Below are positions 7,203 through 43,600 of a stretch of DNA of 64,000 nucleotides, in pieces; positions within the stretch are counted from its first letter, which is position 1, and the number at the start of each line of letters is the position of its first letter. The stretch comes from Glandiceps talaboti (lineage: Eukaryota > Hemichordata > Enteropneusta > Spengelidae), in the NCBI RefSeq assembly GCF_964340395.1, contig NC_135551.1, positions 13,278,003-13,342,002 on the forward strand, written 5' to 3'. Under the pieces are notes generated by a model. The model had not been told where the DNA came from and did not search any database. It saw only the letters and a list, made by a program, of their open reading frames with translations. The position numbers and the translations under genes are program-made.

Positions 7203-7211
7203 ACTATACAT
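7203..7211 (+). repeat. Left target-site duplication (9 bp) of the 11.4-kb element
   Basis: ACTATACAT, identical in the same orientation to 18609-18617. Extending either side by one base breaks the match, so the duplication is exactly 9 bp and fixes the element ends at 7212 and 18608. Confidence 0.75.
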
Positions 7212-7532
7212 ATGGAGCGTAATCCACGTCAAAAGTCGAACTCGTCAAGTGATAAGTCAGGTACATCAAGTGACAAGTCAGGTACATCAAATGACAAGTC
7301 AGGAGCGTCAAGTGATAAGTCAGGTCCGTCAATTGACAAGTCAGGAACGTCAAGTGATAAGTCAGGTCCGTCAATTGACAAGTCAGGAGCGTCAAGTGAT
7401 AAGTCAGGTCTGTCAATTGACAAGTCAGGAACGTCAAGTGATAAGTCAGGTCCGTCAATTGACAAGTCAGGAACGTCAAGTGATAAGTCAGGTCCGTCAA
7501 ATGACAAGTCAGGAACATCAAGTAATAAGTCA
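7212..7532 (+). repeat. Left terminal inverted repeat: 21-bp minisatellite x14
   Basis: After a unique 33-bp lead (ATGGAGCGTAATCCACG...) come 14 units of a 21-bp motif such as TCAAGTGATAAGTCAGGTCC(G), with alternating A/B variants giving a 42-bp higher-order period. It is the reverse complement of 18288-18608, with scattered substitutions. Because 21 is a multiple of three, all frames stay open; the plus frame encodes SSDKSGP/SIDKSGT heptads. Confidence 0.85.
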
Positions 7533-7775
7533 GGTCTGGATGATAGTCAAACTCTTGAAAAAACAACAAGTCAATGCATCTGGCGGATGAATCAATCTAT
7601 ACTATTACCAAACTGGTACCCCTTAGGATGGCTGATTGTCAACTCAACTACGTCACGACGCGTCATACCCTACGTCATATTTCGTCATAGAAGTTTTCTT
7701 CAGATTCTAACAAGTAAGCTGAGGATCACAACGGTAATCGACCCGGAAGCAGTAAGACATGCACCACGACAGTGA
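7212..7775 (+). CDS. Repeat-coded N-terminal ORF (MERNPRQ + SDKSG heptads) of the transposon's plus-strand gene
   Basis: The ATG is the first three bases of the element. The frame reads MERNPRQKSNS, then about 14 heptads SSDKSGx/SIDKSGx (residues 12-107), then a non-repetitive 80-residue tail ending at TGA. Low complexity, Ser/Asp/Lys/Gly-rich, no signal peptide or membrane segment. It may be a leader exon joined to the domain in 7759-8100; a splice joining them is possible but not obvious. The same N-terminus opens the minus-strand gene at the other end of the element (18608). It could equally be untranslated terminal-repeat sequence that stays open by its 21-bp period. Confidence 0.35.
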   Translation: MERNPRQKSNSSSDKSGTSSDKSGTSNDKSGASSDKSGPSIDKSGTSSDKSGPSIDKSGASSDKSGLSIDKSGTSSDKSGPSIDKSGTSSDKSGPSNDKSGTSSNKSGLDDSQTLEKTTSQCIWRMNQSILLPNWYPLGWLIVNSTTSRRVIPYVIFRHRSFLQILTSKLRITTVIDPEAVRHAPRQ

Positions 7776-8100
7776 CGATACGTCTTGTGTACCATCCCTA
7801 CTGGAACGAGAGGAACTTAGGAAGGTGGGACTGGGCACGCGAAAAATAACGTTTGATGGGGATGGTGGTTTCGAACATTTGCAGGAAACTCTATACCGTC
7901 ATTATCCTAAACTGGCAGATGGTGGTGGATTTATAATATACAGGAACATGCATTCTGGTGGCAAACTACTAACCCCTCTACCCATGCCTAGCAGTGGCTA
8001 TTCGGTACCTTATTTTAGGGACGAGTCCGTGTTAAACTTGGCACGCTGTAGCTTATGTGAGACCCCTGCAAAAGAATATGCAGATAGATCACAGCGCTAG
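7759..8100 (+). CDS. Small N-terminal domain of G2E3-like/HECT-type proteins, exon of the transposon gene
   Basis: 113-residue frame. Residues ~24-92 read GLGTRKITFDGDGGFEHLQE..., then LYRHYPKLADGGGFIIYR and a GYSVPYFRDESV end. The pattern 'F..L...L...FPkL.dgGGFel.R...GYtvpyLr' is one I know from invertebrate and fish proteins annotated as G2/M-phase-specific E3 ligase-like, N-terminal to zinc finger and HECT parts. The start codon is uncertain; an upstream exon may supply it. After residue ~95 the similarity fades and the frame stops at 8100; a GTAAGT-like donor at 8115-8120 (GAG|gtaagt) suggests that the original exon ran on slightly, so the copy may be decayed here. Downstream exons at 8765 and 10667 fit the same gene. 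Confidence 0.5.
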   Translation: MHHDSDDTSCVPSLLEREELRKVGLGTRKITFDGDGGFEHLQETLYRHYPKLADGGGFIIYRNMHSGGKLLTPLPMPSSGYSVPYFRDESVLNLARCSLCETPAKEYADRSQR

Positions 8101-8764
8101 CAGCGCTCACTGTGAGGTAAGTGGAATTTGTGAAATGAATTAATAGGTATTAACAAGGAAATAGATTTTAAAACAAATTTATACAAAGAAAGACTAATAC
8201 ATAAGGGGCACATAGCTAACATTTACAGATTGATCTTATGATAGGTTGAAGCTTTGAAAATACTGGAATGATGATTTATTTTTCTTAGACACTCATTTCA
8301 GCACACATCAGATTTGGCAAAAGAGATATTTTATTTGGTTTGTGTGTATCGATTATATTTTAACTAACCTTGGCCATATCTCGGTGTTTAAGGTATGGGA
8401 ACCCCAGCAATAGAAAGGTGGAAAGCTGGCACAGTGACAAGAGAACTTGTGTACCTTTTACATACATACCACCTTAAAAAAATTTGATATCAGCATTTAA
8501 CAAATACTAATATATACTAATATAAAAACTTTTATTGCCAGAAATTTATAGACTTACAAAATACTCTAAATTTATCCACAAATATACAAAATATCAAAAT
8601 TTACACAAAATGGATATTGTAAAAATAGTTCCTAGGAACTAGTCAAGCTTGTGGCCCTAAGGAAGACCTGTATAGCTTGATAAATGTTTGTAACTACTGT
8701 TTTTTAATTAAACATTAAATAATCAAATAAGATTTAATTATTTGTATTTTTTTTTCTGCTTTAG

Positions 8765-8890
8765 GAAGAGCGAGAAAGTAAGGCAGCCAAAGTATCCTGT
8801 GTGAATTGTGGAAAGGAAGTTACTATAGGCTGTTTGAAAAATCATCAAAAAGTTTGTAATGTAGATGTTGATAATCTGTCCATCAGTGAG
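8765..8890 (+). CDS. Zinc-finger exon (UBZ-like CxxC...HxxxxC) of the transposon gene
   Basis: Acceptor TTTAG at 8760-8764; frame reads EERESKAAKVSCVNCGKEVT then IGCLKNHQKVCNVDVDNLSISE. Cys-x2-Cys-x11-His-x4-Cys spacing suits a UBZ- or C2HC-type single zinc finger, which in E3-associated proteins binds ubiquitin. A GTGAGG donor at 8891 could end the exon; the frame stays open to 8989, so the end is uncertain. It lies between the G2E3-like domain and the HECT C-lobe, in the order known for such proteins. Confidence 0.5.
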
Positions 8891-9000
8891 GTGAGGACCA
8901 ATCTGACGTTGAACCAAACACTGGAGTTAGTGACACAGGGGTACTGTATGAATTTAAGCTGTTGGTTTCATGTTTTTTGTCACCTTTAATGTTATTTGGG

Positions 9001-9500
9001 TACTATACATTAATAGTAGTACAGCTTTACCATACATAGTACTAGACATAGTAGTACAGCTGTACCATGCATAGTACTATAATAGTACAGCTGTACCATA
9101 CATAGTACTACTAGTATACATAGTAGTACAGCTGTACCATACATAGTACTACTAGTATACATAGTAGTACAGCTGTACCATGCACAGTACTATAATAGTA
9201 CAGCTGTACCATACATAGTACTACTAGTATACATAGTAGTACAGCTGTACCATACATAGTACTAGACATAATAGTAGTACAGCTGTACCATACATAGTAC
9301 TATAATAGTAGTACAGCTGTACCATACATAGTACTAGACATAGTAGTACAGCTGTACCATGCACAGTACTATAATAGTACAGCTGTACCATACATAGTAC
9401 TACTAGTAGTATACATAGTAGTACAGCTGTACCATACATATAGTACTATAATGATACAACTGTACCATACAGAGTACCATACATAATAGTACTGCTGTAT
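9001..9500. repeat. Minisatellite with palindromic core TACAGCTGTA
   Basis: About fifteen to sixteen occurrences of GTAGTACAGCTGTACCATAC followed by ATAGTACTA variants, with spacers of 4-20 bp that separate units of about 30 and 34 bp. The core GTACAGCTGTAC is self-complementary and each unit can form a small hairpin. It lies in what would be an intron of the plus-strand transposon gene. Confidence 0.9.
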
Positions 9501-10666
9501 AGCATGAGTTATAATACCAGTTTGAAACTTGTTTCACATTCACTCACCAAGCATTTGTCTTGAGTTGCCTCAAGGGCCTAAGTAGAAGTACATTTATGAT
9601 AGATGAATAATAAATTCACTACTTCTTGCCTCAAAGCATGCAGTTGCGAAAAAAAAGAGCCCAGTTTAATTGATTATTACAGTGGGTCTGTTAGTCCGTC
9701 CATAATGCATTTCTCAGACATGCAATATCCAGTTACTTTTAAGCCAGGCGCAAAGATGACTTGTCATATGGGACATGTGCAAGTCACTTCAGTTCACAAC
9801 ATACACAAGTGTCCAAGTGGCATGCCAGCCATGTTTGTTGTTAACAATGACTTTTTATGGCATAACTCGAAAACTTGAATACATAGAGACTACATTATAG
9901 TGTCTATCCCTAAATTATTAGGTGTAAACTTTCATTGGAGACCCTGACCTTTGACCTTGGCCAAATGGGTCAATTATCTAAATCCAGTCCTATCCCACAT
10001 GTCACAGATACTTTTATAATGCATATAAAATTTATTAAAAAGTTTTCCTATTTATTACTAATGTCATTTAAAATCATGATAGAAGTAAAGCATGTGAGGG
10101 AGTGCATTTTTGATGAAGACTTGTGAGTCCAAACTTAATGTCATTTTTTGCTTTTGATACAGTAATTGGGTCATTGGCTCATATATCAGGTACAAATGTA
10201 TATTATTCACAAACACAAGTTCTCTTTGACAACTTTGATTGAAATACAGACATGCTTTGAACAAATAACCTTTACATCTCCAGTTTATTCAAATTTTGAT
10301 CATTCTGTCAGATCCGGTTTAACTGAAGAAGGATATGTCAAGTCATTAGTTCAAAACATGCCTGTTTCAGATTCTAAAGTGGAAGAAGAAAACTTGTGTT
10401 TGAATCGCCATGCTTCTATGATGAACATACACTTATGTCATTGTCATTACACATCATCACCCTTCAACTAGTAAGGACCTTCCTGGAAGGTAATGGGTTC
10501 TGAAATAGCATAGGTTAAGTACCAATATAGCCAGACTTAACATATATCATGGAGTATTGGTTAATTGTGGGCAACCGTAAGGACTAAGAGCTAGTTTACT
10601 CAGAAATTAGTTAACATATCATAAAAAACTGTTGCATATAACATATTTTATTCTCTTTTTTCCCAG

Positions 10667-10893
10667 ATACCAAACCCTCTATCCATGATGTTTTGCAGTG
10701 TATAACAGGCGACAGGAATATGCCCTGGAAAATTTTCATATGGTTCAGTAGCATACCAATATCTACATTGCCAGACCCTGGTGTTTGTACCAAGGAAGTG
10801 CAGCTTCATGTCAGCCATGAGTCTTACCAAACTTTGAAAAACTCCTTTGATACAACTGTCACATTCCAATGTGTAGGTTTTGGGTGGTATTAA
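10667..10893 (+). CDS. HECT-domain C-lobe exon (E3 ubiquitin ligase type) of the transposon gene
   Basis: Acceptor TTTTTTCCCAG ends at 10666. The frame reads TKPSIHDVLQCITGDRNMPW, then a segment containing STLPDPGVCTKEVQLHVSHE, SYQTLKNSFDTTVTF and a GFGWY end at TAA. This matches the HECT C-lobe pattern 'LLqFiTGs..lP......lPtA.TC...L.LP.y.sye.lk..f..A....GFG'. The Cys in GVCTKEV aligns with the catalytic thioester Cys. The HECT N-lobe, which should lie between 8.9 and 10.6 kb, is not visible, so the gene is probably damaged or its exons are too diverged for me to see. A protein-like frame at 10290-10470 may belong to it. Confidence 0.55.
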
Positions 10894-11039
10894 CACATAT
10901 TTTCTTGATCTACTTTTCAGCTGTGGAATTAATATGTTAAGATGATTTTCAGACAACATACACATGCAAAGAATGCTAGTAAGGTGCTGATTAAAAATAT
11001 GCCTCATTTTGTGGTAAAATTCTTTAAATATTCACGGGT

Positions 11040-11815
11040 GCAACTTTAATCACAGTTGTAGTAAGTTACCAGAAATAGTGTATTCACTGGACTGGTGTAA
11101 GTTTAATCACAGTTGTACTAAGTTACCAGAAATAGTGTATTCACTGGACTGGTGTAAGTTTAACCACAGTTGTACTAAGTTACCAGAAATAGTGTATTCA
11201 CTGGACTGGTGTAAGTTTAATCACAGTTGTACTAAGTTACCAGAAATAGTGTATTCACTGGACTGATGTAAAATTAATCACAGTTGTACTAAGTTAACAG
11301 AAATAGTGTATTCACTGGACTGGTGTAAGTTTAATCACAGTTGTACTAAGTTAACAGAAATAGTGTATTCACTGGACTGGTGTAAGTTTAATCACAGTTG
11401 TACTAAGTTACCAGAAATAGTGTATTCACTGGACTGGTGTAAAATTAATCACAGTTGTACTAAGTTAACAGAAATAGTGTATTCACTGGACTGGTGTAAG
11501 TTTAATCACAGTTGTACTAAGTTAACAGAAATAGTGTATTCACTGGACTGGTGTAAGTTTAATCACAGTTGTACTAAGTTAACAGAAATAGTGTATTCAC
11601 TGGACTGGTGTAAGTTTAATCACAGTTGTACTAAGTTACCAGAAATAGTGTATTCACTGGACTGGTGTAAGTTTAACCACAGTTGTACTAAGTTACCAGA
11701 AATAGTGTATTCACTGGACTAGTGTAAGTTTAATCACAGTTGTACTAAGTTACCAGAAATAGTGTATTCACTGGACTGGTGTAAGTTTAATCACAGTAGG
11801 TAGTAAGTTGCCAGA
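11040..11815. repeat. 57-bp minisatellite, ~13.5 copies
   Basis: Head-to-tail array of a 57-bp unit containing GTGTATTCACTGGACTGGTG and TAATCACAGTTGTACTAAGT with few differences (ACC/AAC at one codon, GTTT/AAAT at another). The period is 19 codons, so one frame stays open through most of the array (YSLDWCKFNHSCTKLPEIV); I regard this as an arithmetic effect, not a protein. Confidence 0.95.
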
Positions 11816-13224
11816 AATGTAATTTTGCATCATTTTTAGAAACATAGATTGCAAGAGGAATGCATTAGTTGTTTCCATAATTTCTAACATTATCTTTTTT
11901 TCTCTACAACACACAACACACAAAACTCAATCCAGTGTCTACCTATGATCAATGTAACCTTAGAAATTTAGTTGTGTTTTCTCCAATTCAATGTATTGCA
12001 TAAACTTGAAGTATCTTTCCATTTTTGATGTCATCAATCCTCTCTAATGCTTCTCACTACACTGATTACAGATTAGATTTAGGGGCTAAGTGACAATATC
12101 TTGGAAACAACAAAGGGTTACTGCTTCGGTTCTACATTAAGTCCAGAGAGTCGATTCATATGCTGCTAAAAATTATATCATTGCACTTTGAATTGTTTTA
12201 GAACAGGTGTGAAAACTTATGATTGAGGTGACAACTTCTGATGATGAGTTACTTGTCAAAGACTTTAATCAGTTAGATAGTTGGGACAAAATTAGCCTTA
12301 ACTTTGATGCATTTAATAGGTTAATTTCAGTAAGTCCTTTCAAAAAGTATTTAGTTTTTTGAGAAGTTTTGAGAAATTTTGAGCTTACTTATAATAAAAA
12401 TGTTCTCAGAAAATTCTTGTGTCCTTTACTGTCATAATAATTTTAGGATACTGACTTACAGGGAATGAAAACATTACATGTACTCCAAAGCATGCACTAT
12501 GAAAATCAAAACATACATACATCTGCAAGTTATACTTGGTCATCATGAAATGTTTATTCATTTTATTAAAATATACGTGTATACCATGATACATTTTTGT
12601 TAAAATAATGTTACATGTTCACAATAAATGACATGACAGCACTATCACAAAGTACAATTACTATCCGTGGTACTATATCACTGTCAAAGCCATCTATAGA
12701 CCTGACGTCCGTTCAAACCCCCCAAAAGCATCAAATTCTATGAATATCTAGATCGATATAGGATCATACCACAATGACTGCGCGATAAACCTGCACAGAT
12801 CTTCTGCTGCATTGAATGTCGTAAGGTAAGCCCCCTAGGTGCCCTATGAGAGTAACGACACATAAGGATCTGAATCCACTTTTTTGGCTGAAATACTGAA
12901 AGCAATATTTTTGCCTGAGAGTTGTGCATAATCATTGATAAGGTTGGACAGAATATAGGTCAATAAGAATTGCACACAACACTTTTCATGATTGTTCAAG
13001 AGTTATCAGTGGAAATACCACTTCGTTCCATTACTGTATCAGACAGCTGAATACAATAATATATTCATATTTCCCTGTCTTTTTGTTGTCCTTCAGTCAG
13101 TGTCTTGACATCAAACATAACATGACCTTGACCTTTTTGAATACTCCATTAGTTTGTCACCAATATTCAACCATTGGTACTTTATCATGACAGGAAAGAG
13201 TTAACTATGTTAACTACATATATA
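11816..13224. other. Interior of the 11.4-kb element without clear gene
   Basis: AT-rich. A 47-codon plus-strand frame at 12220-12363 (MIEVTTSDDELLVKDFNQLD...) looks protein-like and ends near a GTAAGT (12330), but I do not recognise it and it lies after the HECT stop. Nothing else supported. Confidence 0.25.
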
Positions 13225-13411
13225 TATATATATCAATCCCATTACTTGATGATTCTGCAAGTGGGTCGATCAACATGCACAATTCTCTATATTTCTCCTC
13301 TTCAAGTGGTATTGTCACATCAGGAATTGTTACACTTACAAGTTCTGGTACATTTGTTGGAGTTCCCAATCAACACCATATTCCAAATCCTGTCAAATGA
13401 AAATTGAAAAT
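13225..13411 (-). pseudogene. C-terminal part of the transposon integrase gene (broken)
   Basis: Minus strand, preceded by an acceptor-like TTTGACAG at 13412-13419. The translated pieces DLEYGVDWE and PELVSVTIPDVTIPLEEEKY ... LIDPLAESSSNGIDIY match the tail I know from animal integrase-core proteins ('EYGVDW...VPEv.vPl.e...L...vDPL.es..yGID.Y'). The pieces are not in one continuous frame. This is the 3'-most remnant of the minus-strand gene; the intervening integrase middle part has not been found and a 60-bp minisatellite now fills the interval. Confidence 0.55.
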
Positions 13412-14097
13412 GAGATAATGGAAACCTGACTTTGCCAAACTTACTGTTGCAAAAGAATTTGGTCTAAATAGAAGAAAATTAAGTTAATAGTTTCAAAATA
13501 CAACCCTGCCAATAGGTGTTGTTCTGTCCATATGTATGTAGGACGGTACTGTATATGAATGTCAATACTACATACTTATCAAAAATAATAAAACAATTAT
13601 AGTAAAACAACTCACTGGATATATGACACAGAAGTGTTGCAAATAAAGAATTAATAAAGATTTCTGCACATCATGAAGTATTGAGGCAAAACAATTGAAT
13701 TCCATCACACATACAATCTATATTTTAACACTTAATTAGCAAACTGAGACTGTGACAGAAAGGTAGGTGTGAGTATCTAGGAACATTTTGAAGGAATAAT
13801 ATGTGAGATTGAAATACATGCAGGATTAAATGTTATGCCAACTAACATATGCAAGATTAAATAGGAACATTGTATATCATGTCCATGTTGCAGGGTATGT
13901 TTTGCTACTGCTCACATGGTTGTCAAAAGTATACCTACTACACAGATATGCATTTCATCTCTATGCATAGACTGTTATACACATCTCTGAACCATAGATG
14001 CATGTATGTTTTGTTGAAATACAAGTTGCTAAACAGGTTGAATTAAAGTATGTCTCAAGTCTTGTGCACACCAAAGCAGTTATTGGGATATGTTATC

Positions 14098-15725
14098 CAA
14101 AGCTGCTACAACAACTATGGGCTAATACAGTTATGTCTACAACCCTGTATTAGGTATGTGTGTGGCTATACCACCATAGGGCTAATACAGTAATGTCTAC
14201 AACTCTGTACTAGATATGTGTGTGGCTTTACCACCATAGGGCTAATACAGTTATGTCTACAACCCTGTATTAGGTATGTGTGTGGCTATACCACCACATG
14301 GCTAATACAGTTATGTCTACAACCCTGTATTAGGTATGTGTGTGGCTATATCACCACATGGCTAATACAGTTATGTCTACAACTCTGTACTAGGTATGTG
14401 TGTGGCTATACCACCATAGGGCTAATACAGTTATGTCTACAACCCTGTATTAGGTATGTGTGTGGCTATACCACCATAGGTCTAAATGAGTTATGTCTAC
14501 AACTCTGTACTAGATATGTGTGTGGCTATATCAACATAGGTCTAAATGAGTTATGTCTACAACTCTGTACTAGATATGTGTGTGGCTATATCAACATAGG
14601 ACTAAATCAGTTATGTCTACAACTCTGTACTAGATATGTGTGTGGCTATACCACCACATCGCTAATACAGTTATGTCTACAACTCTGTACTAGGTATGTG
14701 TGTGGCTATACCACCATAGGTCTAAATCAGTTATGTCTACAACCCTGTACTAGATATGTGTGTGGCTTTACCACCATAGGGCTATACAGTAATGTCTACA
14801 ACTCTGTACTAGGTATGTGTGTGGCTATATCAACATAGGACTAAATCAGTAATGTCTACAACTCTGTACTAGGTATGTGTGTGGCTATACCACCATAGGA
14901 CTAAATCAGTTATGTCTACAACTCTGTACTAGGTATGTGTGTGGCTATACCACCATAGGTCTAAATCAGTTATATCTACAACTCTGCACTAGATATGTGT
15001 GTGGCTATACCACCATAGGACTAATACATGCAGTTATGTCTACAACTCTGTACTAGGTATGTGTGTGGCTATACCACCATAGGTCTAAATCAGTTATGTC
15101 TACAACTCTGTACTAGATATGTGTGTGGCTATATCAACATAGGTCTAAATCAGTTATATCTACAACTCTGTACTAGATATGTGTGTGGCTATATCACCAT
15201 AGGACTAATACATGCAGTTATGTCTACAACTCTGTACTAGGTATGTGTGTGGCTATACCACCACATGGCTAAATCAGTTATGTCTACAACTCTGTACTAG
15301 GTATGTGTGTGGCTATACCACCATAGGTCTAATACAGTTATGTCTACAACTCTGTACTAGGTATGTGTGTGGCTATATCAACATAGGACTAAATCAGTTA
15401 TGTCTACAACTCTGTACTAGATATGTGTGTGGCTATACCACCACATGGCTAATACAGTAATGTCTGCAACTCTGTACTAGGTATGTGTGTGGCTATACCA
15501 CCACATGGCTAATACAGTTATGTCTACAACTCTGTACTAGGTATGTGTGTGGCTATACCACCACATCGCTAATACAGTTATGTCTACAAATATGTACTAG
15601 ATATGTGTGTGGCTATACCACCACATGGCTAATACAGTCATGTCCACAACCCTGTACAGGATATATGTGTGGCTATACCACCACAGGGCTAATACAATTA
15701 TGTCTACAACCCTGTATTAGGTATG
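14098..15725. repeat. 60-bp minisatellite, ~27 copies
   Basis: Units carry GTATGTGTGTGGCTATACCA, CCA(C/T)A(T/G)GGCTAATACAG and TTATGTCTACAACTCTGTAC. Variants (CACATGG, CATAGGT, CAACATAGG; AATACAG or AAATCAG) mix along the array, and a few units are 59 or 65 bp. With a 60-bp period the frame CGYTTxxLIQLCLQLCTRYV stays open for up to 200 codons; I treat this as a by-product. Likely an intron or spacer of the minus-strand integrase gene. Confidence 0.95.
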
Positions 15726-15829
15726 TTTTGTCAGTTTCCCTAAGTAGTCTTATTAACACACTAACACTAACAGGGTTGTATAGATATATTTATACTTACT
15801 TGTTCTGTGGATAGGAAGACCTCCCTTCC

Positions 15830-15957
15830 AACTGTACCACTGGAATTTGCAAAGGCTAAAAGACCACTGGCCCATACAGTTTAAAAACATGACTTTTCTG
15901 GAGTAACCATCAATTCCTCCATGAATAATAAAACGCCACCTATAAGTATATAACACA
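15830..15957 (-). pseudogene. rve/DDE integrase core exon (WRFIIHGGIDGYSR), broken
   Basis: Minus strand; acceptor TACTTATAG upstream (15958-15966), donor GTAAGT downstream (15824-15829). The frame begins WRFIIHGGIDGYSRKVMFLN, the diagnostic core of an animal integrase/transposase group ('LWHIDGNHKLIRW.fvIHGGIDGySR...fL'). The Asp in GGIDG is a catalytic DDE residue. The rest of the exon keeps recognisable family residues but not in a continuous frame, so this copy is a fossil. Its upstream neighbour exon is at 17539-17583. Confidence 0.65.
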
Positions 15958-16135
15958 ATAATGGCTTGATTGAAATACTCAAAATTATGTAAAGGAACAC
16001 TAAAATGGATCATAAATGCTAAGCAAGAATACATATTGCACAAAAACACCACTAGCATACATGATATAGATATAAATGCTAGGGCAAATAGATGTAAATA
16101 CTAGGGCAATCAATTGGGCGGCTTTTGCATTCAAG

Positions 16136-16136
<1 letters not shown>

Positions 16137-16231
<95 letters not shown>
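16137..16231. repeat. (CA)n then (CAGA)n microsatellite
   Basis: About 29 CA dinucleotides (16137-16195) followed by eight to nine CAGA tetranucleotides. A shorter CA tract is at 16777-16807. Confidence 0.98.
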
Positions 16232-16232
<1 letters not shown>

Positions 16233-16771
16233 CCCAGACACCACACCATGATATAGCACTAGCAATTGTTCAGTTGTGCTAACAAGTGACTAAAATCAAC
16301 ATCACTACAAAATATTCTTCCCAATGTTTTTGACTTCTAAGTTTCTTTAAATTTAAGTCAACCACACATATAGGCAGACAGACAGATATTCATGGGCAAG
16401 ACTATTTATCATGTCTGTAGCATGAATGCATCGTACCTGTTTTAATCATAGACAGTGTCTATGATTTAATTCAGCTGTGCTAAAATTTCCAAGCAACCGC
16501 AAACCAAGGTTAAACTTTATGCATTGACACATTGACATTGAGATGTTAAGTAGCCCACAACAGATTTAAACGATTACATGACATTAATAAAACAATAACT
16601 AACCTTTCATTTCTAGGCCTGGTCAAGGCATTTTCCCACACCATGAATCACGTATTTTGACCCAAAATTCACATCTCTGTTGTGATCATTTTCATTTGAA
16701 CAATTTGCAATCTACACACCCTGACCACCATATACTAGGCCAATCAGTCTGTCAGTTTTCAATTTTATGTC

Positions 16772-16807
<36 letters not shown>

Positions 16808-16915
16808 TTCACCATGCTTATAAGTTATAGCACAAGTGAACCTCTGTTCAGTAATGCTAATAATTAAATATTAAATAATAATAATACATACACACACTAT
16901 ATATGTATATATATT

Positions 16916-17302
16916 GAACACATATTGCCTGGCCATGAGGGCTATAGCACCAGTTTATTACACCAAGGAGACTGTGAGTTACCAGAATCACATGCTATTT
17001 CCTGAGGCCGAAGGGCGAGGGAAATAGCATATGATTCTGGTAACTCACAGTCATGAGGGGATAATGAACGGGTGCTATAGCCCGAATATAGGCCAAGCAA
17101 TATGTGTTTTGTAATATACCTCATGCTGTGAACTCGCAGTGGCAGACGACATCATCAGAAGCTGCCATTTTGACCTGCGGTGGTCATGTGACCATGTAAT
17201 AGTTGATGGAACTATTTCCCTAGGGAAACAGTCATTCTATTTTCCTATCACGTGACTGATTCTAGCGAATCATGGCGCAGCAATATCACAAGGTATATTA
17301 TA
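16916..17302 (+). repeat. Half copy of the 771-bp palindromic element
   Basis: Matches 5250-5650 from GAACACATATTGCCTGGCC through the internal 95-bp hairpin to the AAGGTATATTATA at the dyad centre, with about 5-10% differences. The mirror half is absent. It lies between (TA/CA)-rich DNA on the left and a GA/TA-rich stretch on the right, nested in the 11.4-kb transposon, so it arrived or expanded after it. Confidence 0.9.
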
Positions 17303-17538
17303 AATATAATTATACATATATATATTTAAATGAACAGTTAGTGTGTCAGAGGACAAGAGAGCATGAGAGAGAGAGAGAGAGAGAAAGAGCCTAACACAGT
17401 TTGTATGTTTTCTCTCTCTATGTTTATAATAATAATTAATCATCATCATCATCATCAAGACACAACAAAACCATAAAAACTATGTATCAAAAATAATTCC
17501 ACAATAAACAATAAAGTAATATTTTAAAACTTACCGAA

Positions 17539-17583
17539 TAAGTTTGTGATTTCCATCAATGTGTCATAGAGCTAAAGGTGAGT
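17539..17583 (-). pseudogene. Integrase exon with the HIDGNHKLIR motif
   Basis: Minus strand, acceptor TTTAG, donor GTAAGT. In the frame that joins the 15830-15957 exon it spells the family's HIDGNHKLIR, placed directly before WRFIIHGGIDGYSR as in intact relatives. The first catalytic Asp is in HIDG. The copy is not intact. Confidence 0.65.
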
Positions 17584-17719
17584 GCACGTGATATGGCCTT
17601 CTGCGTACTGAACGTACCTCAAGTGCCCATATCAGAACACTGTGCGTATCAACTCTGTGGCATCTCTAACCCTTCTTTGTTGTAAACGAAGATTTCTCGA
17701 GCGAAGAAAACCAATCATT

Positions 17720-17985
17720 CGTCTACAGCCACACCTCACAGTTAGGAAAATCTCTTTGTATTTCACGGACTTTCTCGTCTAATTCTTCATCAGTTAATAG
17801 TCCTGAGTCGGCTTGAAATCAGTGTGGCATGATACAGTTCGTTGGCCATGGTATTCTTGAATGAGTTGGACAACTTCGTTATTACACATACCTATGGCAT
17901 TCAACTGACACAGTAGACATACACGACTTTGAACTCGGCCTACTACTTCAACATCGTTTTGAAGTCATTCCGCAAAATGCCTAAA
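17720..17985 (-). pseudogene. N-terminal part of the integrase gene (broken)
   Basis: Minus strand. Two protein-like pieces: VVGRVQSRVCLLCQLNAIGM ... VVQLIQEYHGQRTVS, and SGLLTDEELDEKVREIQRDF PNCEVWL. The second fits the region 'lsDeELDe.VreI..dyPncG.R' found about 60 residues before the HIDGNHKLIR motif in this integrase group. Together with the exons at 17.5, 15.9 and 13.4 kb it shows the order N-terminus to C-terminus along the minus strand. Several breaks in all. Confidence 0.5.
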
Positions 17986-18014
17986 CTGGCAAAGATGTGC
18001 GAGCGCACACATGA

Positions 18015-18197
18015 TTACTGGATGTAAGACGGGTAATGTTTTTTTTCCGGGTCATGACCTAGGTCATATAACTTGTCACGAGCATACCTAGCTTTGTAGA
18101 CATTGGTATTACGATTTCCAAATGCGTTCTGTAAAGTAGTCGTCAGTTGACGTGTATTCACTTCCAAGCAAGCTGGGGTGCTTTGTGCAGACTTCAA
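18015..18197 (-). CDS. Unrecognised 60-codon frame near the start of the minus-strand transposon gene
   Basis: Reads QSTPACLEVNTRQLTTTLQN then AFGNRNTNVYKARYARDKLY to a stop. Composition is protein-like and it lies between the repeat-coded N-terminus (18608-18225) and the integrase N-terminus (17985), so it may be an intervening exon. No family recognised; could be chance. Confidence 0.2.
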   Translation of the reverse strand: MKSAQSTPACLEVNTRQLTTTLQNAFGNRNTNVYKARYARDKLYDLGHDPEKKHYPSYIQ

Positions 18198-18224
18198 CGT
18201 ACGCTTTGATTTAACTGCACTCTA

Positions 18225-18608
18225 TGAATTGTCAACTGTCCACATTGAATTATCAATTGCCAAAAATGATACAACGTCCGTACAAATTGACTTATCACTT
18301 GACGTTCCTGACTTGTCATTTGACGGACCTGACTTATCACTTGACGTTCCTGACTTGTCAATTGACGGACCTGACTTATCACTTGACGTTCCTGACTTGT
18401 CAATTGACGGACCTGACTTATCACTTGACGTTCCTAACTTGTCAATTGACGGACCTGACTTATCACTTGACGTTCCTGACTTGTCAATTGACGTTCCTGG
18501 CTTGTCATTTGATGTACCTGACTTGTCACTTGATGTACCTGACTTGTCACTTGATGTACCTGACTTATCACTTGACGAGTTCGACTTTTGACGTGGATTA
18601 CGCTCCAT
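18225..18608 (-). CDS. Repeat-coded N-terminal ORF (MERNPRQ + SDKSG heptads) of the minus-strand transposon gene
   Basis: Mirror image of the ORF at 7212. Begins MERNPRQKSNSSSDKSGTSS at the first base of the right terminal repeat, runs through about 14 heptads, then leaves the repeat into ICTDVVSFLAIDNSMWTVDN before a stop. Frame conservation of both copies is compatible with translation, but the period of 21 alone would also keep the frame open. Confidence 0.35.
18288..18608 (-). repeat. Right terminal inverted repeat: 21-bp minisatellite x14
   Basis: Reverse complement of 7212-7532, the same total length of 321 bp and the same number of units, with differences in the variant order of a few units (units 3-5 and one CCAGG change). 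Retention of equal length in both ends suggests recent insertion or gene conversion between ends. Confidence 0.85.
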
Positions 18609-18617
18609 ACTATACAT
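18609..18617 (+). repeat. Right target-site duplication (9 bp) of the 11.4-kb element
   Basis: ACTATACAT, identical to 7203-7211. Confidence 0.75.
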
Positions 18618-24178: not shown

Positions 24179-27100
24179 TATATATATAACTTGGTGAGTA
24201 TCAATCTGCTAAGACAGTGCTCTATACCGCAGTGGCAGAGCGTAATAGTTTTGGTAGTACTGGAACTCTTTCTTGGTTGTTACTCGGAGTTTGACGCATA
24301 GTGCGATCATCAGACAATTCTGAGGCTTACTCTCTGGGTGTGCAGACAAACAAATTATCATGCACGCGCGGAAATCTCTCCTCTTTGATAAAACCAAACC
24401 ATGGGTAAAAAAGAATAATAATGGGTCATTTGACGTCACAATGGGAAGCAACGACGGGGCCGAAATATGAGAACTGGTCGGAATATTCATGCTACACAAA
24501 TTAGCCAAAATATATGGTAAAGAAAACATAGGCCTCTATATAGGGACGACGGACTCGCCGCCTTCAAGAACATCACCGGAAGTAAATCAGAAAGTATCAG
24601 AAAAGATATAACTAAAACCTTCAAAGCCATGGGGTTAAAAATAACCATACTCACCAATCTGAAAACCGTCAACTTTCTAGACATAACGCTCAACCTCAAC
24701 AACGGTAAATATTACCCTTACAGAAAACCCAACGACAACCCCATGTACATACACACGCAGTCTAACCACCCACCCAGCATCATCAAGAACATATCGTCAG
24801 CCATCGGCCGTAGAATTTCCGACATATCATCCGACGAACACATCTTCAACCAGGCAGCCCCACTGTACCAAAATGCACTAAAAACCAGCGGCCACAAAGA
24901 GAACATCACGTACACCAGCACCTCGACGCAGAAAAACAAGAAAAACAGAAATAGAAACACCATCTGGTTTAACCCACCATACAGCAAAAACGTAGCCACC
25001 AATGTAGGCAAACGATTCCTCAACCTAATCGCTAAACATTTCCCAGCAGACTCTAAGTTACACAAAATATTCAACATAAACAATGTCAAAGTCAGTTATA
25101 GCTGCACGCCAAACATGGCTACCATAATCAAAGCGCATAACGCCACCATCTCCAACAGCGAAACTAAACCCACTCAAAAACCCTGTAATTGCAGACAGAA
25201 AGACACCTGCCCTTTGAACGGCGAATGCCAAACGGAAAACATCGTATACCAAGCCACCGTCCACGGAAAACAAACAAAAGTATATATCGGTCTAACAGAG
25301 AACAACTTCAAACAGAGATACGCCAACCACAAACAGTCATTCAAACATGAAAAACACGAAAACAGCACAGAACTATCAAAACATTTTTGGAAACTGAAAA
25401 GAAACAATGAGTATTTTTCCGTATCCTGGTCCATCAGCAAGACAGCCCAAGCATACACCAATAAAACAAAACGATGCAACCTGTGTATATCCACAAGCAA
25501 TCCAACCACCCACCAAACATCACCAAGAACCTACCCGCATCGATAAGCAGACGTTTAACCACCATCTCGTATGATGCTGAAATCTTCAAACAGTCAGCAC
25601 CATTGTACTACAACGCACTGAAGGACAGCGGTTACACAGAGAAAATATCCTACACTAACAACCCACAAGCAACTAGAAAAAGAACCCGCCAGCGTAACAT
25701 CATCTGGTTCAACCCACCATTCAGCTCTAACGTCAGAACAAGCATTGGGGGAATATTTCTAAAACTCATCAGGAAACATTTCCCAAAGAAATCAACCCTA
25801 CACAAGATCTTCAACCAAAATACAATGAAAGTCAGTTACAGCTGCATGCCAAACGTCGCCAACATCATCAAAACACATAACAACAAAATCGCGAACAACA
25901 ACACAACGACCAAAGAGAAATCCTGTAACTGCCGAAATAAAAGTACATGCCCCCTACAGGAAAGCTGCCTGACCACCAGTATAATCTACAACGTTGAAGT
26001 AAAAAGAGAGGAATGCAACCAACCCCCCAAACTGTACATCGGCCTGACTGAACATGCCTTCAAACAAAGATACAATAACCACAACCTAACCTTCAGATAC
26101 GAAAAATACGCAAACAGCACTGAACTTTCGAAATACATCTGGCAGCTGAAAAGAAATAAAAAAACGTTCAAAGTAGACTGGTCTATATCACAGAGAGCAC
26201 GCCCATACAGTAACGAAACCAAACGATGCGACCTCTGCCTAACTGAAAAACTCTGCATCCTCAACGCCGACAAACAAACACTTCTCAACAAAAAATCTGA
26301 ACTCATCTCAAAGTGCCGACACGAAAACAAGTTCTACATAGCGAACTTCAAAAGTAACATCACCTGACAAATCTGAGGACCCCTTGTATGCATAGAAACA
26401 ATACACAATTAACTGCCAATAAATTCTTTCACACCTTACACATATAAATACAGTAACACAACGAGTAGCTGACAGTTGTCTGATGAACGCATTGAGCGTG
26501 AAACTCGGAGTTACAACCAAGCACCTCAAGTTCCAACCAACCTACTTTGATTATTCCCGCCCTGCTTACCCAAGCATCGAGCACTCTATTCTACGAGTTT
26601 GATACTATTTACTATATATATATATATATACCACTACTTACATATTGAAATTTATTTCAGAAATATCAAAGTCCCATTTATCAATTCACCGCAACAGATC
26701 TTTCAGTCAGATGTCAGATAGTGCATACAGCATGGGGTATATGTATGATGAAAACCAGTCTCGTCAATTTCCTCCGCCAGGTGGTTGTGGTGAGTTCATA
26801 GTTAATAAATGTGTTTATACAGAGGATGAAGCTAAACTGGCCATGCTGCACTTGTCACTTGTCTCATACATATGCAAATGCAATCTACATACATCCATGT
26901 ATATGTATGACATATATGTAAATGTATGCAGTGTTCTCGCTTAGGTTTGTGAACCCCGGTAACAGAAGGGGAAAATCACTTAAAATTTTGTGTATGCTTC
27001 AATACCTAGTACAGCAATGTTGGTGGTGAACCTTAGTGTGTGAAATTTGCATAGATTTTCTGACTGCGGCTCCCACCATGTATGTATATTATGTCAGATG

Positions 27101-40686: not shown

Positions 40687-43600
40687 CACCACTACCCTTT
40701 TGCTTTTTAACCAAAGAGAGGTAGTTTAATCCACTCAACCAGTAATCTTTGGGCTGCTGTCATATTCATTAAGTGTGTATATGTATTGGGGTGGGGGTGT
40801 CAATACTTGGGATGTTAGCAATACTTACCTATTTTATTTTTATCCATGAGAGGTTGTTTGACCCACTGAGCCAGTAACCTCTGACCTTGAGCTGTCCTAC
40901 ATTTGTTTAATAATCCAAGTAAACACATGGTCTTGTTACCACCTAGGAGAGAGAGACAAAATAACATGTATATATTTATCAATGGGACTTGCATTCATAT
41001 CTACAAAATGTTCATGCCTTATAGCTTATCATTCAAATTTCCTGGTTAGGTTTTCCCTCGGGAGTAAAATGGGTGACTTTGAAAACTGGCATCAGAGTCA
41101 GTCAAAACGCTACCTACCACCCCCATCCCTACCCCGACCCTCTGCTGTGTTCTGGTATATTGAGGTCATACATTAAGATAACAAGTCACCTGTTCAAGCA
41201 TGTCAGAGTTATGGCTTTGGACATGGAAAATTCGCAAATAAAATGGCTGCCAGGCAGCCATATTGGATCGTATCACGTCAACAATGAATATGCACATGTA
41301 TGTTATAGAACACTGTCCTAATTCCAACTTTCAATGAGATCTGTTCAAGCATGTCTGAGTTATGGCTTTGGACAGGGAAAATTCCCAAACAAAATGGCCG
41401 CTAGGCAGCCATATTGGATCGTATCATGAAACAAATTGACGTGCATATGTATGCCATAGTATCTTGCCCCTGTACCAAGTGTGAAAAATTGGTCCAGGCA
41501 TCTCCAAGAAACGGCTCCGGGCGGACGGATCCCAATCCATAGGTCGACTAATAACATACATCATTCTCATAGCTAGATAATAATTAATTATATTATAATT
41601 TATTCAAATATGTTGAGAATTTCGAGATGCATGTCCCTGATGGACACAGAATTAAAGTACACGAACCAGCAAAACAATAGCAAATCTTATCACTTACCAT
41701 CTAGACTACTTGGTAAGAGGTTGAGTGCCCTCACAGCTGCAGCATCTAGTCTCATGTACTGATTCAGGTCAAAGGTCATGAGTTCAAACTGTCCAAAGTT
41801 GCTTTCGTCGCTAAGCAACTACGAAGAACAAAAAGATGAAAATGCATTTTTTTATTTCTGTCATTAGTTTCTTCTTTATAAAAAGATATGCTATAGTCTA
41901 GAAATGGTGTGGATGATTTGCAGTAAGAGGGCAAAAATCTATGCATTGTCTCATGACACCTAGAACTGAGATCATTACAATACTAATTGTATGGCTGATA
42001 TGAAGACCAAGAACAAAATTTACAACAAACTTTGTGTTACAGTGATTTTGGCATTATGACCTGTAGTGAAGAGAATAACAAAACTTACCTCTAAATATTT
42101 AATCAGGGCTGACAGTGCAGACATAGCATGAACTTTCTCCATTTCAGCTACGAACACAAGATACAATACATTTTTAGAACATATTTGTATAGGTGTGACA
42201 ACATACTCTTCCATACAATATTATAAGTAAATCATTAGGCCCTAAAAAAAAATTGCCACGACAGTGGTCCAATTACGCTCAATATTAGAATAGGTATATA
42301 TATATTTTTTTCATGTCCAGATCAGGTAGTTGATATGTTTTCCGTTGTTTTCCAAATGGTCTCTGTGTTATTGGTTTCTTCTCATCAGAGGTGCAACCAT
42401 TACAGATTGGATGTCTTATAGTTTTATATTGTCATTTTAAAGTTATGTCAATTTCCGCATCCTCTCTTTCTCGCAAGACTTGACAATTTTCGTATTTTAT
42501 TTAATTTTTCTCGAATACATCAAAAAAAATGTTTAGGGTCGGCAGTAAAAAACTAGGTGGGTGGTCAGGTAACCGGAACCAAACAATCTTTTTTCTTAGA
42601 CCTTATATCCATAAAAAAAATTCAAAACACTTTCTAGTTGCAGCTAGTGCAGCTTTAACAAAAACACTGTAGAAATGGATGTTGCCAACTCACGTAATGC
42701 ACTACTGTTTGTCTGGTCTTCTTTCTTGGACTTCAACAGTCTGTTCAAATCTTGAACGTTGTCCTTGACACTGAACTCAGCTGTAGATAAATGAACACAG
42801 AGTAAAAGAACTGACAGAGCATAAAAACTGACACACAGAGCATAAGAACTGACAGACAGAGTATAAGAACTGACACACAGAGTATAAGAACTGACACACA
42901 GAGTATAAGAACTGACACACAGAGTAAAACAATGCTGTAATAATGCTGTACCTTTCTTTCTTTCGGTTATAAGCAAACCACTTCTTTCAAGGATTTGTTT
43001 AAGTTTGTTCATTTCTGGTCCGCTGTCTCCAGAGGGCAGTACACACTCCTTGGGTCCAATCTGAACGATAAGTGCCTATGTATGTAATAATTAATAAATG
43101 AAATATTAATCAACAATAAGAATTGTACACTCTAGTGACACCCTATCAGAAGTCATTTGCTAAACATCTTCAAACCAAGAAATTACACTATTTTTACTGG
43201 GTACTAGTATTACTTTTTTTTAAATTCTATATTATAACATGGGAAAAATTAAAGTCTGCAAACTAGGACCTCCTAAGCTACTGTACACAACACAAACAAT
43301 TTGGCAGAATGACAATTTTGGATGTGTTAGGCACACTTTAATGTGGCAGATGGTGCATGGGGAAAGTAGACACTACTTGTACATAACTTATCTGACTGGC
43401 CTGCCACATTCTGTTGGTGACAGCTGGAAATCCCAGGATATAGAAATATGACAACTTATAAAGTATGTTACCGGGACCTACATGGGTGTACTTTCAGGAA
43501 GTATTTTTCTGCATATATTCAGCTAAAATAAATCCAGCACTGAACAACTCATGCCTACAATTAGTTAAGTATATAATACATACAGTATTACTGGAACTTG

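Follow-up and report, generated by a model that had tools for sequence, protein, structure and literature searches.

A stretch of 64,000 nucleotides from the hemichordate Glandiceps talaboti (NC_135551.1, positions 13,278,003 to 13,342,002; hereafter the window) carries at window positions 7211-18609, or C4:13285213-13296611, an element that is probably a non-autonomous member of the IS3EU/GingerRoot group, DNA transposons that move by cut and paste, here in an animal; its ends may be made of phased transposase-binding sites. Support in the sequence comes from TATGG..CCATA ends, a 7-bp target-site duplication, copies on several chromosomes, one empty site and the remnants of two convergent genes. 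The ends of the element are arrays of a 21-bp minisatellite, and the part that looks new is the recurrence of this 21-bp period, with differing units, beside related integrase genes.

The element is bounded by two inverted arms of 322 nt each that are 96% complementary, as defined by the comparison of the arms with one another and with the ends of other copies. The left arm (7211-7532, plus strand) starts with TATGGAGCG and the right arm (18288-18609, minus strand) ends with CGCTCCATA. Each arm consists of about 14 copies of the 21-bp unit with a 42-bp higher order: the left array (7243-7536, plus strand) begins 32 bp inward of the left end and comprises 14.0 copies, and the right array (18288-18577, minus strand) comprises 13.8. 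An earlier note on this DNA had described a DNA transposon whose inverted repeats are a minisatellite; the complementarity of the arms, and the recurrence of their ends in inverted pairs elsewhere, confirm this description. Its figure of 14 units per repeat agrees with the arrays, but the arms measure 322 nt instead of 321. The note had also reported a 9-bp direct repeat. ACTATACAT is indeed present at both ends (7203-7211 and 18609-18617); however, other copies have ends that start with TATGG, so that the outer T/A of this repeat is part of the element end TATGGAGCG and the duplication is the 7-bp CTATACA (left copy, 7204-7210; right copy, 18610-18616). Taken alone ACTATACAT is weak evidence, as it has four matches in the window for 1.61 expected and four were reached in 8 of 100 shuffles. 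The termini of the window copy and of the copies sharing its ends (family 1) are of the TA..TA type, TATGG..CCATA, and match TAYGG..CCRTA.

The left end was used to search the genome (590 Mb, 47 contigs) and yielded at least 73 matches, a lower bound since 40 of 97 candidates were scored. Inverted pairs among these matches were grouped into 11 elements, E1 (the window copy) to E11, and paired inverted ends are thereby found, as anticipated, at ten further places on several chromosomes. A target duplication accompanies nine of the family-1 copies: it is 7 bp long in seven of them (E1, E3, E4, E5, E6, E7 and E11), 6 bp in E2 and 8 bp in E8. Hence the flanks of most copies do bear duplications, but of 6-8 bp and not of the 9 bp first expected. 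The right end of E9 is missing, and no duplication was seen in E10. The flanks of E6 and E7 are identical (300/300 and 340/340 bases), and these two copies therefore represent one insertion copied along with its surroundings. For E6, a paralogous element-free place was identified: the joined flank gives one contiguous match with 89% identity at C10:7846569-7846735, with one CGCACA at the junction, a G in place of C as the seventh base, and gaps of 15 and 6 bases farther out in the left flank. The single target copy that had been predicted for empty sites is thus observed, for an insertion other than that of the window, and the same pattern would be equally expected from clean excision. The left end scored 100% identical across 350 bases at five other places, two of which (L020 and L033) lie on C12 with the same flank; these identical left ends point to recent spread. 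Two copies of the E11 right end, at C12:14592604 and C12:14621032, share their flank and are separated by about 28 kb, a local duplication.

Better preserved relatives of the element, family 2, are present at C12:21543644-21557629 and C18:5472081-5488770, with TATGGAAAGCC ends and 6-bp duplications. Among six family-2 elements the 6-bp duplication is exact in five and holds for 5/6 bases in the sixth. Their arrays have a period of 105 bp, made of five 21-bp subunits, and one copy of 611 bp (C20:4458021-4458631) has arrays at both ends and a length into which the genes would not fit. The family-2 integrase frame (467 codons) matches PF24764 with an E value of 2.9e-79, and the NCBI models of IS481 (1e-13) and IS3 (2.5e-9), both below the cut-offs; across 39 integrase sequences D213 and D270 are invariant and E305 is nearly so. 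A profile built from this integrase and 38 relatives matched the tankyrase SAM domain over positions 6-49 (2.8e-4), P0061, one of the two integrase relatives scanned, gave a marginal SAM match (0.0054), and HTH_23 was matched under the cut-off (0.0011). Judging from these profile comparisons, the family-2 integrase probably contains helix-turn-helix and SAM domains. The family-2 HECT gene converges on the integrase gene; its C-lobe matches HECT at 6.5e-10 and its first exon matches SAM_1 just under the cut-off (1.8e-4). SAM was found in three of the four HECT relatives scanned, namely P0165, P0154 (SAM below the cut-off) and P0158 (HECT below the cut-off), the fourth, P0137, having HECT only. 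When viral contigs were searched with the integrase, no relative was found.

In the window copy these genes are represented by fragments. On the minus strand, the window matches PF24764 (E 1.5e-7) over model positions 20-65 of 194; an integrase fragment reaching HIDGNHKLIR lies at 17534-17797 (tblastn), its aligned frame interrupted by stop codons, and a fragment of the integrase core, RWRFIIHGGIDGYSR, at 15876-15941 (Pfam and tblastn). On the plus strand, an N-terminal exon fragment of a HECT-type gene occupies 7756-8097, an open frame with an ATG at 7759 and with 23/64 residues identical to the family-2 exon. A putative further exon of this gene, with a zinc finger of the form CxxC...H...C, follows at 8765-8890 (approximate limits); it was recognised by eye and had no tool match. 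A putative HECT C-lobe fragment at 10642-10890, also on the plus strand, matches the family-2 C-lobe only, and weakly (E 6e-4 in a single BLASTP comparison); no match was obtained there by tblastn or Pfam. With the integrase fragments on the minus strand and the HECT-type fragments on the plus strand, the two genes therefore converge. The earlier claim that an integrase and an E3-ligase-like gene point at each other is correct as to orientation, although fragments are all that the window holds. A PF24764 fragment lies within the same ends in six other copies (E2, E3, E4, E5, E8 and E11), in line with the prediction that these ends bound other integrase-bearing copies. As far as seen from its coding remnants, the window copy appears to be non-autonomous, with decayed pieces of the integrase and of the HECT-type gene as its only remaining genes. 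The suggestion that an element of this sort is the source of proteins annotated as 'integrase core domain' agrees with the family-2 relatives on C12 and C18; the window copy is without most of the integrase.

The association of the two genes extends beyond these families. The 32 PF24764 matches of the genome correspond, by our own grouping, to 27 loci, 7 in family 1 and 20 others, the latter being counted as 19 with a tandem pair on C5 taken as one. A HECT match is located within 12 kb of five of these 19 loci (on C12, C18, C22, C10 and C11), for 0.07 expected, and the two genes are convergent at four of the five, that on C11 being the exception. For public genomes, the pairing set comprised contigs larger than 5 kb, with 56 integrase proteins (from 120 of the 3039 relatives in the protein database) and 77 HECT-gene proteins. 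Among the matches listed, six contigs are common to integrase and HECT proteins (jitter null 0.01), placement on the same contig being deduced from exact agreement in size. Two of these six contigs are only 30,226 and 27,569 bases long; another is a Pinctada chromosome and has little weight. Among the best 120 of the 3039 relatives, the few that are named belong to corals, bivalves and a hydrozoan.

The search for arrays took in roughly 5 kb of upstream sequence at each of the 19 integrase loci, extended to 8 kb at C8. A period of 21 (or 105 = 5 x 21) was found at eight of them: C12:21.55M, C18, C13:3.85M, C11:3.67M, C22, C1:30.4M, C19 and C10. At C22 and C13:3.85M the 21-bp arrays form inverted pairs flanking the integrase, C22 having an additional 24-bp array on the left; further arrays in the upstream stretches have periods of 234, 109, 78 and 8. 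The units fall into five sequence groups (family 1; family 2 and C13a; C22 and C11; C1a; C19 and C10), and 23 of the 25 comparisons between groups gave no better similarity than shuffled units, the remaining two being marginal (family 2 versus C11, p 0.038; C13a versus C22, p 0.042). Only 1 of 14 control arrays has a period of 21. These controls were taken from the window outside the element, from internal arrays and from six 3-kb stretches placed by hand, not randomly, which contributed five arrays, none of period 21; the counts for the Fisher test were likewise sorted by hand, and arrays upstream of integrase fragments were not used as controls. In family 1, family 2, C19, C1a and C5 the array is separated by 25 to 73 bases from a TAYGG end farther out, and at C10 by 48 bases; TAYGG is present at both ends of C13a, the first end bases of which are common with family 2. 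When eight 21-bp units were tested for palindromes, significance was reached for C22 only (p 0.002; the other seven, at least 0.12), and we therefore make no claim of dimer sites.

How would such an element move? A transposase supplied from elsewhere would bind both ends and excise the element, and the excised ends would then be joined to target DNA cut with a stagger of about 7 bp. Tandem transposase-binding sites may be what the terminal 21-bp arrays provide. Twenty-one base pairs correspond to two turns of B-DNA, and tandem sites of this spacing would have all units on one face of the DNA; this same-way facing is the reason why we favour phased transposase-binding sites. As a further guess, the SAM-like N-terminal domain of the transposase may allow cooperative binding along the array. 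Between families the sequence of the unit would turn over fast while the period would tend to persist. The HECT protein could mark a host or transposon protein for turnover, which is again a guess. Beyond the window copy, we tentatively propose, at somewhat less than even confidence, a class of animal transposons with period-locked ends, in which the sequence is free, the repeat length is fixed at two turns, an integrase with a SAM domain forms a phased filament and a SAM-HECT ubiquitin ligase is the conserved partner. The element and its relatives connect proteins annotated merely as 'integrase core domain', as well as SAM-HECT proteins, with a single kind of mobile element. The different repeats of the same length near related integrases hint that the spacing of repeats may matter more than their letters, and the proposal offers a testable rule: at the ends, spacing is conserved and sequence is free. 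If the arrays are transposase sites, the recognition sequence of a transposon would here evolve as a minisatellite, which would bear on the co-evolution of transposases with their ends and on the origin of animal minisatellites.

By its structure, set against published descriptions (TAYGG..CCRTA ends, 6-8-bp duplications, an IS481/IS3-like integrase), the element fits with IS3EU/GingerRoot. In the passages of the literature consulted, IS3EU/GingerRoot elements have TA..TA termini and usually 6-bp duplications (PMC10045372), and fungal IS3EU have TAYGG..CCRTA ends and 6-bp duplications (PMC12730594). The likeness thus concerns the TA..TA termini, an integrase-type transposase without the HHCC zinc finger and, less clearly, duplications of about 6 bp, of which family 2 has mostly exact cases and family 1 only one; in the same passages, TET-bearing fungal IS3EU carry an alpha-kinase gene opposite to the transposase, which resembles the two-gene layout here (PMC10045372, PMC12730594). 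The differences are the 7-bp duplication of the window's family, the long minisatellite ends and the HECT-type partner gene. The earlier note knew of no described superfamily with this set of features; as the terminal signature agrees with that of IS3EU/GingerRoot in these partial descriptions (PMC10045372, PMC12730594), a new superfamily was rejected. Exact-word searches of the open-licence literature returned no HECT-bearing transposon, no paper with both IS3EU and HECT and no account of 21-bp or phased terminal repeats; Repbase may already record such an element, and the result does not show it to be unpublished. Inverted repeats made of tandem repeats are also a feature of Foldback-type elements (Drosophila Galileo, Tetris), and Galileo has a 7-bp duplication. 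Galileo, however, belongs to the P superfamily by its transposase, as far as its description was consulted, whereas the relatives here carry an IS481/IS3-type integrase (PF24764). In Tn7 and phage Mu, each end contains several repeats of about 22 bp that are bound by transposases of this broad fold. This arrangement recalls the ends described here, but the sites are few, the systems bacterial and the duplications 5 bp long, whereas about 10 to 80 units are present here. Part of an oyster satellite table (PMC8268682) lists unclassified 21-bp and 105-bp satellites as well as two assigned to IS3EU, which may be connected with ends of this type.

Several observations weigh against the interpretation proposed here. 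The PF24764 matches inside family 1 are all partial in the genome-wide search, and no complete integrase was found in this family (E2-E10 by tblastn, E11 being read at its ends only). Pfam, with E values up to 10, detected no SAM domain in the family-2 integrase, and none was found in the integrase relative P0006. The likeness to IS3EU/GingerRoot is drawn from descriptions and not from reference sequences, and the 7-bp duplication of family 1 is longer than the 6 bp usual for IS3EU. As for the period, it is 22 at two of the 19 loci (both on C5) and 7 at two others (C13:0.21M and C1:35.76M), a 17-bp AT-rich array is present at one (C12:16.4M), and six have no array of this type within the upstream reach. 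Period 21 is moderately enriched (p 0.018 per locus, 0.052 per unit group; 0.024 and 0.067 when the left 24-bp array of C22 is counted), and a 21-bp array of 6.5 units also occurs outside the element, at window positions 42795-42926, which weakens the uniqueness of the period. At C22, C11, C13:0.21M, C1:35.76M and C5:7.1M, the 120 bp beyond the array contain no TAYGG; the place of these five arrays at transposon ends is therefore not established.

The main rival to phased binding sites is plain inheritance of the period: a functionless 21-bp period would come from one ancestral terminal array, the units drifting and being homogenised while the period is copied. Common descent alone could indeed preserve a period without selection, and we regard this explanation as a serious possibility, if short of an even chance. 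It is favoured by the related units within the groups of family 2 and C13a, C22 and C11, and C19 and C10, by the two marginal likenesses between groups, and by the internal arrays of family 1, whose periods are likewise kept between copies. However, nearly all between-group comparisons show no similarity above shuffled units, yet the period is common, and the 22-bp and 7-bp arrays indicate that a period is able to change. The repeats could also act mainly in transcription, as promoters or enhancers for the two genes that point inward, instead of serving mainly as sites for the transposase; the arrays do lie upstream of integrase genes, but this role is rather unlikely given the 611-bp family-2 copy, which retains both arrays without space for genes.

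The earlier note had further called the minisatellite coding; on this reading it would give both transposon proteins an N-terminal repeat of seven residues. This has not been borne out and appears improbable, although an ATG is present at base 2 of each end, the frame is open across the array with SSDKSGT-type repeats, and 21 is divisible by three. The frame from the ATG at 7212 differs from that of the HECT-gene exon ATG at 7759, a mismatch that splicing could bridge; in family 2, a possible ATG for the integrase frame and one for the HECT frame lie on the inner side of the array; and the array has a 7-bp period at two integrase loci. Across 223 units, three of the five positions that vary most are third codon positions (p 0.21), a count that neither shows nor excludes coding, and two of the five alter the amino acid. 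The hint of a Mutator-like element, taken from the long inverted repeats and the 9-bp direct repeat as first read, is almost certainly mistaken. Mutator elements make duplications of 8-11 bp, and the assignment was rejected on duplication length, which is 7 bp in the window copy once other copies set the end and reaches 8 bp in one copy, E8. The transposase-like domain found is PF24764; no MULE transposase appeared in Pfam scans of five window open frames, a dedicated search not having been made.

Between its arms the window copy also contains an internal 57-bp array (11037-11818) and an internal 60-bp array (14119-15726). In one copy and its segmental duplicate (L010-L013; C10:6483433-6504512 and C10:6626649-6635360) the 60-bp array differs in length, about 14 kb against about 0.6 kb, and it therefore expands or contracts quickly. 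At 16939-17083, inside the element, an inverted repeat of 64 nt around a 17-nt loop is possibly a small nested element. Elsewhere in the window, two related open frames at 24521-26367 resemble, by eye, the GIY-YIG end of Penelope-type retroelements.

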